This document shows, one piece after another, positions 45,830-50,869 of a stretch of DNA of 64,000 nucleotides. The stretch spans positions 1-64,000 of the forward strand of contig LVBI01000017.1 in assembly GCA_001603145.1 (NCBI GenBank), in the 5' to 3' direction. Below the pieces are notes generated by a model. It ran no database searches and was not told the origin of the DNA. It was given only the letters and a program-made list of their open reading frames with translations. Source of the stretch: Spirochaetales bacterium Spiro_07 (GTDB taxonomy: Bacteria; Spirochaetota; Spirochaetia; Treponematales; Treponemataceae). Every line of letters begins with the position of its first letter. Within the stretch, counting starts at the first letter, position 1. A program made the position numbers and the translations under genes.

Positions 45830-46416
45830 GCTTTTCTGAAAGCGGCTGCAACGGAAACGCGCCGCCTGAATGCAGAATCCAAAGGTCAAGGCGGCGCTCG
45901 ATAAGTTTGTGCATAAGCGATGATGGCGCAGTGCTTGTAAAAGCGCCGCTTTTTATGAGCGATGTCGCAATCAGCAAGTTTCTGGCTGAAAAGCAGGGCT
46001 GGCTCGACAAAAAGCTTAAAGAAGCCGCAGCTGCCCGGCAAGAAGTTGAGTGGCTCGGCTCTTTTTCAGCTGAAGAGCTTGCGGCAATCAGAAAAAGAGC
46101 GAAAGAAATCATTCCTGAGCGGGTGGCGCATTACTCAAAGCTTTCGGGCATCTCTTACGGCAGAATCTCGATAAGGCTGCAAAAATCGCGGTGGGGCAGC
46201 TGCAGCGCGTGCGGCAACCTCAACTTCAATTGTCTGCTTGTGCTTATGCCGCCTGAAATTCTCGACAGCGTGGTGGTGCATGAGCTTTGCCACCGTCGCC
46301 ACATGAACCACTCAAAAGCATTTTACGCCGAAGTCTTGCGCCTTTTTCCAGATTACCGCCGCTGCTCCGCCTGGCTAAAAGAGCACGGCGGCGTTTATCT
46401 GGCAAGGGTCAAATAA
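45823..46416 (+). CDS. DUF45 / YgjP-like M48-type zinc metallopeptidase
   Basis: 197 residues. The catalytic motif is HELCHRRHMNHSKAFY with zinc ligands His153 and His157 and catalytic Glu154. The preceding QKSRWGSCSACGNLNFN segment is the family hallmark. It overlaps the HAD gene and is probably co-translated. Its last 40 codons recur, with almost only silent changes, in a truncated copy at 48075-48200. The physiological substrate is unknown. Confidence 0.88.
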   Translation: MLSFSESGCNGNAPPECRIQRSRRRSISLCISDDGAVLVKAPLFMSDVAISKFLAEKQGWLDKKLKEAAAARQEVEWLGSFSAEELAAIRKRAKEIIPERVAHYSKLSGISYGRISIRLQKSRWGSCSACGNLNFNCLLVLMPPEILDSVVVHELCHRRHMNHSKAFYAEVLRLFPDYRRCSAWLKEHGGVYLARVK

Positions 46417-46634
46417 TTCAATCGTGCTGTCATGCTGAAACCCGGCTTCCGATCACGGAGCATGGTTCAAAACCGCGCGATAACGCGCTACACACTGTTT
46501 GTTGTATGGAAACTATATGCATGCCGCTGTCGCGGCGACAACAAACAGAGTGTTTTTGCCCCACGCTCCGCGCTCTCTCTCGCCAATTTCAATAAGCTGA
46601 ATTGCGTTTGCCGTGCGCCATTGCCAATCATGTT
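46289..46634 (+). repeat. Direct repeat copy 1 (about 345 bp)
   Basis: It begins inside the DUF45 gene (GTCGCCACATGAACCA), runs through its stop and through the branched element at 46457-46569, and ends just before a GTCAT palindromic unit. It is matched by 48067-48412 at roughly 90 percent identity by eye. The 46417-46837 gap holds this repeat end and the palindromic pair at 46635-46738, and no further gene. Confidence 0.85.
46457..46569. repeat. Branched palindromic element, copy 1
   Basis: Predicted pairings: outer GGAGC with GCTCC and TGG with CCA; a GCGCG-ATAA-CGCGC hairpin; a long arm CTGTTTGTTGT with ACAACAAACAG closing a GCCGC/GCGGC tip. The other copies are at 48225-48337 and 50326-50442. 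Confidence 0.7.
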
Positions 46635-46738
46635 GTCATGCTGAACTTGTTTCAGCATCTGAGCTAGATATAGTATTCAGATTCCGAAACATTCAACCGT
46701 AGCGAGTGTGCGGTTGATGCGTACTGTTCGGAATGACG
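46635..46738. repeat. Facing pair of palindromic units
   Basis: Forward GTCAT-GCTGAA-CTTG-TTTCAGC-ATCT (46635-46660) and reverse AGAT-TCCGAA ... TTCGGA-ATGAC (46679-46737), with an 18-bp spacer. An ATG inside the reverse unit is not a real start for the following GGDEF gene. Confidence 0.8.
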
Positions 46739-46801
46739 CTACGAAACGAACTTGTTGGACAGCTCCATTCCGTTAATTTCCGCTGCAATTTCAACTTTTT
46801 G

Positions 46802-46830
46802 TTTAAAATTTTTCGATATTCCATTATACT
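46802..46830 (+). promoter_or_regulatory. Candidate promoter giving a leaderless GGDEF mRNA
   Basis: TTTAAA, 17-bp spacer, TATACT (46825-46830). The ATG follows at 46838, about where transcription would begin, and no ribosome-binding site is visible. Confidence 0.35.
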
Positions 46831-46837
46831 CATTTTT

Positions 46838-47998
46838 ATGTATGAACAATTTTATCGAATTGAAGTAAATGCAATCTGCCTCTTCTTTTTGGTCTGGATT
46901 ATATTGCGCATAAAGATTTTTCAGGACAATCAGACCCGAAACATACTTTTCATCAGGGCAATAATCGGAGCTTTAATTCTAATTGTTTTGGATACAATAA
47001 TGAATTTCGTTTCTGGTGATGCAAGACCTGCGTTTTATGTCTTCAACTGGATTTTTAATACAGGCTACTGCGTCCTAAATGCTTACACAGCATACGCGTG
47101 GTTTTCTTATGTGATTTATACACTTTTAAGTGATAAAAAAAGGGTTGCCGCAATAAACAAGCTAACCGCAGTTCCGCTCGTAATTTTCATAGCGCTTGCC
47201 ATAACTTCGGTTTTTACAAAATTGATTTTCTACATTCAGCCTGCGACAAACACTTTTGTGGACGGGAAACTTTCGTTCCTGCAGATAATTGTAGCTTACG
47301 GATTTTTTACAAGCGCCTCTTTCATTTCGTTGATTTTTTTTATTCGCAAAAAGCATACGATTTACAAGACCTACGTTATAATCCTTTCGTTCATTGTGCT
47401 GCCCTTTTTGGGGGGATTCTTTCACATTGTTTTCCCAAAGGCAAGGATTGTCTGGCAGATGCTGGTCATCGCCTTTTTGTTGATTTATATCGAAATTCAG
47501 TTTGACTTGATTTCTAGAGATTCCCTTACCGGCTTGAACAACCGAGGTGCTTTCGACAAATATCTGAAAAGAATTTCGGAAGAAGAGCCTCTTGATTTCA
47601 ACAGCAGACGGCCTTTTATTTTTATGATTGATGTAAACCTCTTTAAGGAAATCAACGATACTTTTGGTCACACAGAAGGTGACAACGCCCTTATTGTTAC
47701 AGGAAAAATCATCCTGAACTGCTTCAGAAATACAAACGCCCATGTAAGCCGCTACGGAGGAGACGAATTTGCTATAATCTATCCATGCACAGAGGAAGAA
47801 GCAAGTAATATCCGAAAAGAACTTTACAAAAATTTCGAACTTTCTTCAGAAAACTATAATTTGGAATATAAATTGACTGTAAGCATTGGATATGCTGCAA
47901 TAAAAGAGCGAAGCTTAGAAGCAGGAAAAGAAGCTTTGAAACTTGCTGATAAAAATCTTTATGTCGAAAAAGATTTTATGCACAAAAAGCAAAAATGA
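46838..47998 (+). CDS. Membrane diguanylate cyclase (GGDEF), AT-rich
   Basis: 386 residues: about six to eight membrane helices over the first 215 residues, then a GGDEF domain with DSLTGLNNRGAF, MIDVNLFKEINDTFGHTEGDNAL and RYGGDEFAIIYP. The active site is complete and the I-site is absent (no RxxD). The ATG at 46838 opens the membrane region; the longer frame from 46733 starts inside a palindromic repeat. The gene is clearly AT-richer than the flanking genes and lies between two 345-bp direct repeats. This suggests it arrived by insertion or by recombination with a related strain. Unrelated in its N-terminal half to the cyclase at 32491. Confidence 0.87.
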   Translation: MYEQFYRIEVNAICLFFLVWIILRIKIFQDNQTRNILFIRAIIGALILIVLDTIMNFVSGDARPAFYVFNWIFNTGYCVLNAYTAYAWFSYVIYTLLSDKKRVAAINKLTAVPLVIFIALAITSVFTKLIFYIQPATNTFVDGKLSFLQIIVAYGFFTSASFISLIFFIRKKHTIYKTYVIILSFIVLPFLGGFFHIVFPKARIVWQMLVIAFLLIYIEIQFDLISRDSLTGLNNRGAFDKYLKRISEEEPLDFNSRRPFIFMIDVNLFKEINDTFGHTEGDNALIVTGKIILNCFRNTNAHVSRYGGDEFAIIYPCTEEEASNIRKELYKNFELSSENYNLEYKLTVSIGYAAIKERSLEAGKEALKLADKNLYVEKDFMHKKQK

Positions 47999-48074
47999 CA
48001 AACCCTAAACTTGCTTCTAATATTTGCATTGCGAAGCGAGCAGTTTAATTCGTACAGCTGAATTGATACCGCTA

Positions 48075-48200
48075 CGCCACATGAACCATTCAAAAGCATT
48101 TTACACCGAAGTCTTGCGCCTGTTCCCTGATTACCGCCGCTGTTCTGCCTGGCTAAAAGAGCACGGCGGCGTTTATCTGGCTCGCGCAAGTCAAAGTTAA
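48075..48200 (+). pseudogene. 3' fragment of the DUF45 metallopeptidase gene
   Basis: 42 codons in frame, from RHMNHSKAFYTEVL to a TAA stop, corresponding to the last part of the gene at 45823. Over the first 37 codons nine codons differ silently from the intact gene and only one changes the residue (Ala to Thr); the last residues differ. That pattern shows the copy diverged while coding, so it is not a decaying local duplicate. It has lost the zinc-binding HELCH and cannot be active. Confidence 0.85.
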
Positions 48201-48224
48201 GCGTGAAACCCGGCTTTCGATCAC

Positions 48225-48337
48225 GGAGCATGGTTCAAAACCGCGCGATAACGCGCTACACACTGTTTGTTGTATGGAAACTATATGCATGCCGCTGTCG
48301 CGGCGACAACAAACAGAGTGTTTTTGTCCCACGCTCC
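48225..48337. repeat. Branched palindromic element, copy 2
   Basis: Almost identical to copy 1 and part of the same duplication, so it adds no independent evidence for the structure. Confidence 0.7.
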
Positions 48338-48400
48338 GCTCTCTCTCGCCAATTTCAATAAGCTGAATTGCATTTGCCATGCGCCATTGCCAATCATGTT

Positions 48401-48459
48401 GTCATGCTGAACGCTTCGCATCGGCCGCACGCTCGCTACGGTCGAATGTTTCAGCATCT
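48401..48459 (+). repeat. GTCAT ... ATCT palindromic unit with long loop
   Basis: GTCAT-GCTGAA ... TTTCAGC-ATCT. The interior (CGCATCGGCCGCACGC ... GCTACGGTCGAATG) is nearly identical to the unit at 54683-54741, although the stems differ. Confidence 0.7.
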
Positions 48460-48542
48460 CGGAGTTGCTAATTTTGATATAAATCAGCTGACTGCATTAT
48501 CATCATATGTTATTATATCAAATATATATAAGGAAATGGAGT

Positions 48543-49262
48543 ATGAAAAAAATGTATATTATAGCTGTAATAGTCTTAGTTCTGTTATTTTCAATAATGC
48601 GTAATATAAAGACTTTATGCATGACAAATTTGAAAAACATTGAGTACTATATTGATCTAAACAGAAATTATTCAATTTATATTTCTGACACGAGCAAACC
48701 CAATTGGAAAAGAATCATTGATAAAGATGATGCTTATTTTATAACGGATAAAGGAAAAGTCAAAAAAACAAAGATAAAAAGATATTGTGTTGTATATCCC
48801 TCTGGAGAAATATTGAATATATCTCATAATTTATTAAACATACCCAAAAATGCTTATTGGATTGACGATAATGATATTCAAGATTTCAAGGAACTTTCTG
48901 AATCAGAAGTGATATTAAATTCGCAAGACGTTTTGATACAGATAAAAGAAAGTAAAAATCCTCAGATGGTATATTTTACAACAGAAATAACAAATAACAT
49001 GAACTGCAAATTGTTTCCAATCGCTTTTGGCGGTTACATAAAAAAAGATGGAGTATATGTATTAGATAATGTTATAAATACAGCATATTCCGATGTTCAA
49101 TTCATTAACTGGTATAACTGTAGAAATGAATATTTAACACCAGGTGAAACTGTGTCAGATCCTAATAATTATGGCGGAGATGATTCATATTGGATATATA
49201 TCTTCAAAACAGAAAACGGAGATATAATAAAAGTTGGTAAATATATAGATACTTCTTTGTAA
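48543..49262 (+). CDS. AT-rich membrane-anchored protein of unknown function
   Basis: 239 residues with one N-terminal hydrophobic helix (MYIIAVIVLVLLFSIM) and no lipobox, so probably a membrane-anchored or secreted protein. The body is rich in Asn, Ile, Tyr and Lys, with Trp-containing segments NAYWIDDNDIQDFKELS and GGDDSYWIYIFKTENGD. I recognise no family. The ATG at 48543 follows a GGAG. The strong AT bias sets it apart from the neighbouring propeller gene and, like the GGDEF gene, points to foreign origin. Confidence 0.72.
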   Translation: MKKMYIIAVIVLVLLFSIMRNIKTLCMTNLKNIEYYIDLNRNYSIYISDTSKPNWKRIIDKDDAYFITDKGKVKKTKIKRYCVVYPSGEILNISHNLLNIPKNAYWIDDNDIQDFKELSESEVILNSQDVLIQIKESKNPQMVYFTTEITNNMNCKLFPIAFGGYIKKDGVYVLDNVINTAYSDVQFINWYNCRNEYLTPGETVSDPNNYGGDDSYWIYIFKTENGDIIKVGKYIDTSL

Positions 49263-49271
49263 GATTAGTCC

Positions 49272-50288
49272 ATGAAACGATTGCTTTTTTGTCTTATTTC
49301 AGTTTTTTTCGGTCTTATGTGCTTTGCAGAAGCCGCGCTTCAGCCTGAATTTGAGAAAATCGGTGTGTATCCGTGCGGCAAGCAGCCGAAGCAGGTTATT
49401 TTCAGCCCAGACGCAAAGTTTGTGGTGCTTCCGCTGCTTGAAGACGAAGGCTTTGATATTTTCAGCGTTGACGAAAAAAAGGTGATTAAGCGCATAAAGC
49501 CGCCCGAATATGCAAAGCTGGGGTTTGCAGAAGGGCTTTTTGTGCCGTCAAAGCAGGCGTTTTTTGTTTCGCAGATGACGACCGGCAATATCTACGAATA
49601 TTCGTATCCGGGCTTTGAATACAGGCGCACAATTGCCACAAAAGGCGTTTGGAGCAAATTCATTGCGTATAACCCGAAATATGACGTGCTTGTCGTGTCA
49701 AACTGGGTTTCGAATGATGTTTCTGTAATTGATTTTAGCACCGGCGAGGTGAAAAAACTTATAAAGACAAAAGCTGCGCCGCGCGGTATGAGTTTTGTAG
49801 ACGGCGGCGATACGCTTATCGTGCTTTCGTTTGACGGCGGCACAATTCAAAAAATCAGCATGAAAACTTATGAGCTTGTCGATTCAGTTTATATCGAAAA
49901 AGCGGCGATGCGCCATATTGTGACAGACGCAGCGCAAACCAAAGCTTGGATAAGCGACATGTATCACGCAGACGTGCTTGAACTGAATCTGAAAACTTTT
50001 AAGATTGAACGTAAATATCATGTGTTCAACAACCCGAACACGATTGACCTGCTAGGCGGCCGCTATCTTTGCGTTTCGTGCCGCGGCCCGAACAACAAGG
50101 CTGATTACACAAAGCGTAGCCCCGTTGACGGCAAGATTATCGTAATAGACACAGCCGAAAAAAAGCAGCTTTGCGAGATTCAGGGCGGAAACCAGCCGAC
50201 AGGCCTTGCACTTTCTCCGGGGCAAGACATGCTCGTGTTTTCAGACTTTCAAGATGCCGCACTTGAGTTGTACCTTGTAAGGTTTTGA
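49272..50288 (+). CDS. Exported YVTN/YncE-type beta-propeller protein
   Basis: 338 residues with a signal peptide (MKRLLFCLISVFFGLMCFAEA). The mature protein is one beta-propeller of 40-residue repeats: KQPKQVIFSPDAKFVV, NDVSVIDFSTGEVKKLI, APRGMSFVDGGDTLIVLSFDGG and QPTGLALSPGQDMLVFSDF are typical blades. Likely a periplasmic binding or scaffold protein; no ligand residues stand out. It is nine bases downstream of the AT-rich gene but has the base composition of the host. Confidence 0.85.
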   Translation: MKRLLFCLISVFFGLMCFAEAALQPEFEKIGVYPCGKQPKQVIFSPDAKFVVLPLLEDEGFDIFSVDEKKVIKRIKPPEYAKLGFAEGLFVPSKQAFFVSQMTTGNIYEYSYPGFEYRRTIATKGVWSKFIAYNPKYDVLVVSNWVSNDVSVIDFSTGEVKKLIKTKAAPRGMSFVDGGDTLIVLSFDGGTIQKISMKTYELVDSVYIEKAAMRHIVTDAAQTKAWISDMYHADVLELNLKTFKIERKYHVFNNPNTIDLLGGRYLCVSCRGPNNKADYTKRSPVDGKIIVIDTAEKKQLCEIQGGNQPTGLALSPGQDMLVFSDFQDAALELYLVRF

Positions 50289-50325
50289 CCCGGCAATCTT
50301 GATTTTGTACATATGCTTTCGGGCT

Positions 50326-50442
50326 GCGTAGCACGGTTCAAAACCGCGCGATAACGCGCTACATACAGTTTGTTGTATGGAAACTATAGACACGCCGCTT
50401 GCGCGGCGACAACAAACTGAATGTTTTTGAACCGCACTCCGC
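50326..50442. repeat. Branched palindromic element, copy 3 (diverged)
   Basis: Outer pairing CGGTTCAAAA with TTTTTGAACCG, then GCGCG-ATAA-CGCGC, then CAGTTTGTTGT with ACAACAAACTG and a GCCGC/GCGGC tip. Compared with copies 1 and 2, two base pairs of the long arm are exchanged on both strands. A partial copy of its 3' part follows at about 50567-50625. The 50289-50903 gap holds these, the palindromes at 50698 and 50755, and no gene. Confidence 0.7.
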
Positions 50443-50697
50443 TGCCCTTCGCCTTTGCACATACGCCCAAACAGAACGTTGTGCACCAGTTACAAGATTA
50501 TGCGAAGCGGAATCTTGGCGTTTTGCTAGATTAAGCTCTTGCCGTAGATAAAGCTACTGCAAAACGCGCACTCCGCACTCTTCGCCTTTGTACAACAGCC
50601 CCCAAACAGTGCGTTATCGCATCAAGCCCAACAATAATAGATTAATCTTCAAGAGCGTAGAACAATCAACAAACTGTTTACGAACGGGGTTTTTAGG

Positions 50698-50727
50698 GGC
50701 AAATTTTTTAACGTTAAAAAATTTGCC
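50698..50727. repeat. Perfect 30-bp palindrome
   Basis: GGCAAATTTTTTAAC followed directly by GTTAAAAAATTTGCC, with no loop. The purpose is unknown; T- and A-runs on both strands would allow bidirectional termination. Confidence 0.8.
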
Positions 50728-50754
50728 TGAACGGTGCTGGGGAAGATTGGGGTC

Positions 50755-50804
50755 GAAGGGGAAAGAAACCCCCGCTTCCGAGTAGAGGGGTGTCTTTCCC
50801 CTTC
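50755..50804. repeat. 18-bp inverted repeat with 14-base loop
   Basis: GAAGGGGAAAGAAACCCC (50755-50772) and GGGGTGTCTTTCCCCTTC (50787-50804), one mismatch. It lies between the palindrome at 50698 and the ABC exporter genes. Confidence 0.75.
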
Positions 50805-50869
50805 AAAAGTTGCTGGCGCTTTCAAAGCGTCAAGTTGCTCACTTTCAAGCGAAAATAGATTCAGGGGTT

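Follow-up and report, generated by a model that had tools for sequence, protein, structure and literature searches.

When the two sides of a helix change together between the copies of a repeat, such compensatory base changes are usually taken as the best proof that an RNA fold is conserved. The question here is whether they should be read in this way in a branched repeat that is present three times in the window, by which is meant the whole 64,000-nucleotide stretch of Spirochaetales bacterium Spiro_07 that was analysed (assembly GCA_001603145.1, contig LVBI01000017.1, positions 1 to 64,000). A preliminary description left the element unrecognised and spoke of a fold in "DNA or RNA", a caution that was right. 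The three repeats belong to a family of which about 75 copies are scattered in four related rumen spirochaetes; its covariation is of the textbook kind, and it looks like mobile DNA. It probably consists of non-autonomous dispersed DNA palindromes that spread, with their fold maintained at the DNA level, in what are, as far as searched, a few rumen spirochaetes. The copies come and go, the branched pairing is kept and the paired letters change together, which gives the look of a jumping palindrome, a small mobile palindrome of a new kind rather than an ordinary regulatory RNA.

The three window copies, all on the plus strand, occupy positions 46447-46583 (copy 1; repeat D1), 48215-48351 (copy 2; repeats D1-D3) and 50318-50454 (copy 3), with covariance-model matches of 140.6, 142.4 and 159.1 bits, respectively. 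In copy 3, the outer stem (helix 1 of the structure in which pairs were counted; inverted repeat I7, 50322-50446) has its arms at 50322-50343 and 50425-50446 and encloses hairpin A (helix 2, GCGCGATAACGCGC, 50346-50359) and the long arm B (helix 3, inverted repeat I21, 50361-50424), whose arms lie at 50361-50376 and 50409-50424. An internal loop of arm B holds the unpaired GAAACT (50380-50385), which is invariant in an alignment of 29 copies, and the arm is tipped by a GCCGC/GCGGC hairpin (helix 4, 50394-50407) that in other members is GTCGC/GCGAC. In copy 1, the outer stem has arms at 46451-46472 and 46554-46575, and hairpin A (46475-46488) is followed by arm B (46490-46505/46538-46553), the span 46475-46553 being supported by inverted repeat I18 and by the 29-copy alignment; in copy 2, the outer arms are at 48219-48240 and 48322-48343. 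Copy 3 folds as RNA with -61.7 kcal/mol (z -5.2), and two further genomic copies reach z -7.3 and -6.6, values equalled in each case by 0 of 200 dinucleotide shuffles. Folded as DNA, both strands of copy 3 are stable (z -7.2 and -8.7). The branched fold described in three copies is therefore borne out, and the genome as a whole holds about 40 such copies.

Copy 1 is 98% like copy 2, and both lie within a larger duplication (repeats D1-D3), in which the plus-strand segment 46297-46646 that carries copy 1 recurs at 48075-48412 and which takes in the 3' end of the SprT-like gene upstream, so that the only independent comparison is that of copy 1 with copy 3. Between these two, arm B changes as had been reported, from CTGTTTG/CAAACAG to CAGTTTG/CAAACTG and from ACAC/GTGT to ACAT/ATGT, the latter turning a C-G pair into T-A. 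The further claim that the outer stem keeps pairing with altered bases holds only in part: one pair does go from T-A to C-G (columns 17-118), but mismatches occur at no fewer than two positions in copy 1 (GGTTC/GCCCC) and in copy 2 (GGTTC/GTCCC).

Across the family, the unit of about 115-140 bp consists of the outer stem, the GC-rich hairpin A, the long arm B, the tip hairpin and the invariant GAAACT. When the 29 full copies were aligned and a structure of 43 pairs was compared with 500 shuffles, standard pairs made up 96.0% of the pair cells (89.6 in shuffles), both sides had changed in 18 of the 43 pairs and in 99 cells (9.6 and 30.4 in shuffles) and the covariation score was 0.220 (0.100 in shuffles), with none of the 500 shuffles attaining any of these measures. 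Sliding the partner by one to three columns reduces pairing to 35-49%, a comparison in which the counted structure has an advantage since it was partly derived from the same sequences. Three adjacent pairs of arm B are C-G in 16 copies and U-A in 13, A-U in 19 and G-C in 10, and C-G in 18 and U-A in 11, with no exceptions. With the covariance model, the window genome and its congeners yielded 73 unique copies, in which the same covariation pattern is seen; among their cells with letters, Watson-Crick pairs account for 98% in the inner helices and 82% in the outer stem.

A conserved fold with matched changes thus has very strong support in both the 29 and the 73 copies, but it does not establish that selection has acted on a fold of RNA or DNA. 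Covariation is no proof of such selection here because of the whole-helix haplotypes, the near-absence of intermediates, the shuffling of helices and the gain, loss or interior replacement of copies. Hairpin A occurs with GATAAC, AATAAT, GATATC, AATATT, GCTAGC, GCTAAC or TATATA between GCGC and GCGC, and arm B has at least four matched proximal haplotypes and several matched distal ones. One-sided or wobble intermediates are almost absent among the changes. A four-gamete test found all four combinations for nearly all pairs of helices, though not for directly adjacent pairs of arm B. Helices, then, reassort between copies as units while the two strands of one helix almost never part. Unmatched arm changes, which the preliminary description had named as what would speak against a conserved fold, are confined in the proximal arm to about 6 of the 73 unique copies, and certain of the mismatched copies resemble recombinants of two haplotypes (e.g., at locus L057).

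The window genome is a 2.69 Mb draft in 68 contigs. The covariance model returned 49 rows in it, among them minus-strand mirror matches (30-38 bits), which were left out of the copy counts; three congeners gave 9-15 rows each. Of the eight available genomes of the genus, four carry the element (G000, G001, G003 and G006); it was not found by DNA search in 32 relatives of the family or order, nor was it matched in viral contigs or in phage and plasmid collections. A search for the exact core pattern in 84,980 species, each represented by one genome, found it only in four rumen Spirochaetaceae/Spirochaetales metagenome-assembled genomes (MAGs), namely RGIG8276, SRR12081303_bin.21, RUG14308 and RUG14257; since the window's own record possibly lay outside this search, RUG14257 may be an additional carrier. 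Of 47 copies, 44 lie outside open reading frames (ORFs) of at least 150 aa. Their gene neighbours are codirectional and in the sense of the copy in 7 cases, codirectional and antisense in 19, convergent in 7 and divergent in 11, with edges in the remaining 3. The 96 flanking proteins are mostly ordinary and varied in a Pfam tally (a PD-(D/E)XK "transposase" in 3, a leucine-rich repeat in 5), and no transposase common to many copies was found among them.

The sites of the copies differ between close relatives. The intergene of copy 3, between a beta-propeller gene (end 50288) and an ABC transporter gene (start 50904), measures 615 bp in the window. In G003, whose beta-propeller gene is 94.9% identical to that of the window, it is about 256 bp long, in G001 and G005 about 150-160 bp and in G006 only about 50 bp; the element was found there in none of these four. 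For copies 1 and 2, there is no model match at the corresponding stretch in G003 or G006. All three window copies are absent from the orthologous sites of a species that is about 95% identical (G003). Near-precise empty sites exist: a 119-bp element of G000 (L014) is represented in G001 only by TGTACATATGCTATCGGGC-GCGCCGTTGTACAC, a small palindrome (residue CGGGCGCGCCG), so that the element sits at a palindrome centre; 237 bp in G000 face 7 bp in G001 between flanks that are 98% identical (L009); and an element of G003 (L068) is lacking in G006, where the site lies between GCGAAAAG and ACGCGA. Larger local insertions in G001 (L127) and G006 (L094) are likewise missing from a relative. At other sites that are shared, the interior has been replaced between near-identical outer flanks (L010/L057 and L032/L060). 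There is, in short, presence/absence polymorphism among relatives, as in miniature inverted-repeat transposable elements (MITEs), and at least one insertion or loss took place exactly within another palindrome.

This nesting among other palindromes is one reason to read the element as mobile DNA. Copy 3 is itself enclosed by an outer palindromic module (TGTACATATGCT...TTTGCACAT, 50306-50464, plus strand), which is seen elsewhere without the insert and has an empty form in G001; the outer module TGTACAYATGCT...AGCATATGTACA was found both empty and filled. In a second module, of which one example lies just downstream of copy 3 (50518-50567), the loop (roughly AGATTAAGCTNNTTCCGTAGATTAAGCT) is kept while the stem is swapped whole at many loci (CTTTTCGC/GCGAAAAG, GCGTTTTGC/GCAAAACGC, GGTGCGC/GCGCACC and GGGTTTGC/GCAAACCC).

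Other features accompany these modules. Another branched dispersed family (GGGG..TTAGGGGC / CGGTGCTGGGGAAGATAGGGG / CGCTTCCGAGTAGAG), with stems that vary in matched form between copies, is represented at 50685-50850 and at many sites in G000, G001, G003 and G006. At L003 (about 1680-1900) and at L160/L161, short hairpins (CGTCATNRTGACG; CCACATTTTGTGG) are repeated in tandem, and here, too, the units vary in matched form. At 46297-49263, the duplicated end of the SprT gene and the element flank a GGDEF gene (46733-47998), upstream of a 251-aa ORF. The stretch 46413-49263 measures 2851 bp in the window and 802 bp in G003, so the GGDEF gene and the ORF look accessory and element-flanked.

How might such a family arise? 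The element would move as a unit between intergenic sites and, in some cases, would enter the centre of other palindromic repeats to give nested, multi-branched clusters. The folded unit may be copied into other palindromes by an enzyme acting in trans or through template switching coupled to replication, in which case folded DNA, not RNA, would be what is recognised or corrected. Template-switch correction, in which the arms are copied from each other, may keep the arms matched, or selection may act on a folded substrate for transposition. A more specific version can be offered only tentatively, as one we rather doubt: the DNA would be moved or repaired as a folded single strand that favours the apices of palindromes, the helices would be exchangeable cassettes whose strands are mutually copied, and compensatory changes would arise at the DNA level in nested clusters without RNA selection. 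Several observations weigh against mobile DNA. No mobilising enzyme was identified among Y1/RAYT (REP-associated tyrosine transposase) proteins, reverse transcriptases, integron integrases or flanking proteins, and every carrier is a draft MAG. No clear target-site duplication was seen: the one candidate, a 3-nt CGC at the empty L014 site, is explained just as well by microhomology at a deletion. Breakpoints are not the same from site to site (L014 versus L068). Orthologous absence could partly be loss, since palindromes are deletion-prone, and insertion is not always separable from loss. Finally, the 19:7 excess of antisense orientation (p 0.029, uncorrected and ORF-based) would fit a transcribed function of the minus strand, as would the invariant unpaired GAAACT.

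These last points belong to the explanation that the family is a structured non-coding RNA, either a multi-copy small RNA gene or an mRNA element, with a selected fold and the ordinary covariation of RNA. The fold is indeed very stable and the covariation strong, GAAACT is invariant though unpaired, and the 19:7 skew is towards copies whose minus strand is in sense to codirectional neighbours. Moreover, each window copy carries on its minus strand a promoter-like match, TTGTCG-18-TATAGT (46541-46512, 48309-48280 and 50412-50383), in which TATAGT overlaps AGTTTC, as GAAACT reads on that strand. A -35/-10-like pair is present on the minus strand of all copies scored, and in 62 of 72 it agrees with the consensus at 8-9 of 12 positions; a minus-strand transcript from TATAGT with a TTG box (TTGNNN) 15-19 bp upstream is a possible lead from the sequence. 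However, this match is made of the conserved arm itself, the stretch holds only 17 promoter-like sites versus 10.1 +/- 3.4 in shuffles, and the flanks differ between copies, so that there is no common external promoter. If selection acted on one RNA strand, this strand would be expected to show more G-U than A-C. In the inner helices the two mismatches are equally rare (G-T 17, A-C 13; p 0.58), so no single RNA strand is marked, and G-U intermediates are near-absent. In the outer stem, A-C numbers 54 and G-T 37 (p 0.09). All gene arrangements are occupied, the 7 convergent and 11 divergent cases included, copies are missing at orthologous sites in close species, and Rfam 15 gives no match in the window at the gathering score; around copy 1, a threshold of E 10 yields only chance matches to mir-1986 and LOOT, the latter being the best bacterial one (13.6 bits, E 2.4). 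A cis-regulatory leader or trailer RNA was rejected as the principal explanation because the gene arrangements are mixed. A selected RNA of whichever sort seems unlikely to us. Another possibility is that selection plays no part, and that template-switch correction of quasi-palindromes together with gene conversion produces the pattern in inert debris. Template switching is a documented source of multibase compensatory changes in RNA stems without selection (PMC8794818); it, or exchange between mobile copies, can give the same signature, so that a functional RNA is not needed. Multi-base matched haplotypes without intermediates agree with this, as do the whole-stem swaps around a kept loop in other palindromic modules of the genome. 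Yet correction alone would explain neither the conserved unpaired GAAACT nor the wide gap in Watson-Crick pairing between the inner helices (98%) and the outer stem (82%), and about 75 copies across several species speak for active spread at some time. This explanation is a possible though not a favoured one, and it overlaps with that of spreading palindromic DNA, under which matching may likewise be kept by template switching.

Two known mobilisers were also considered. An attC-like site used by an integron integrase would account for an imperfect palindrome with unpaired bases and for three window copies on the same strand with genes between them, and two carriers have a full integrase (TIGR02249; 420 bits in G006, L195 9295-15043; 417 bits in G001, L196 9304-10578). 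This is nevertheless scarcely credible, given that the element has no attC R boxes (GTTRRRY/RYYYAAC) and that its copies are scattered singly rather than in cassette arrays. The G006 integrase is followed by cassettes with true attC sites, which are different palindromes of about 60 bp (ATAACATGCACTTC...GTAGTTAT), in a stretch that holds no copy of the element, and a full-score integrase was not found in the incomplete genomes G000 and G003. A split integron integrase match occurs in G004. A REP/REPIN-type element moved by a RAYT (Y1) transposase would likewise be small, palindromic, extragenic and dispersed, but it is very improbable here: Y1_Tnp has no match in the carriers G001, G003 and G006 (95% complete), and no RAYT, which REP/REPIN systems would have in the genome, was found there. 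The single Y1 match in G000 is an IS200-like transposase (L041 481-1040, contig C23) between its own unrelated CCCCGACGCTCTGCGTCGGGG-like hairpins. Reverse transcriptase (PF00078) was rejected as a mobiliser, as its lone match, in G001, means that it is not shared.

If template switching or a folded intermediate of DNA keeps the arms matched, families of this kind would be traps for covariation-based RNA discovery and, at the same time, natural experiments on the copying and correction of palindromes. The question is open to test, since pairs of close species offer sites that are empty, filled or swapped in their interior.

Tiny nested hairpins with matched changes occur in the small dispersed repeats of Nostoc and in fungal mitochondrial double-hairpin elements, which may resemble the present family in this respect. 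The BOX elements of Streptococcus pneumoniae, built of boxA-boxB-boxC modules (PMC3049150), are, like the element, non-autonomous dispersed composites of folding modules with an inner module that is absent or variable in number; compared by organisation only, they differ in that the element, from another phylum, has modules that nest in palindrome centres and whole helices that change in matched form. REP, BIME and REPIN sequences are extragenic palindromic interspersed repeats that form mosaics and are mobile as folded units (PMC3116915); the element shares with them its extragenic, interspersed, palindromic and mosaic nature, but its unit is much longer and branched, and a RAYT was not found in three of the four carriers searched. 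MITEs such as RUP, Correia/NEMIS, ERIC and RPE (PMC2229807, PMC10969869) are, like the element, under 500 bp, non-coding and variably present among relatives, and the arms of the element are inverted repeats as theirs are. In the element, however, no consistent target duplication was seen, and no insertion sequence sharing its ends was found in the flanks or among the families searched; its breakpoints vary, and it has an internal branch with compensatory subfamilies. The family is accordingly filed as new among dispersed palindromic mobile repeats, where BOX, REPIN/BIME and MITEs are its closest relatives in kind.

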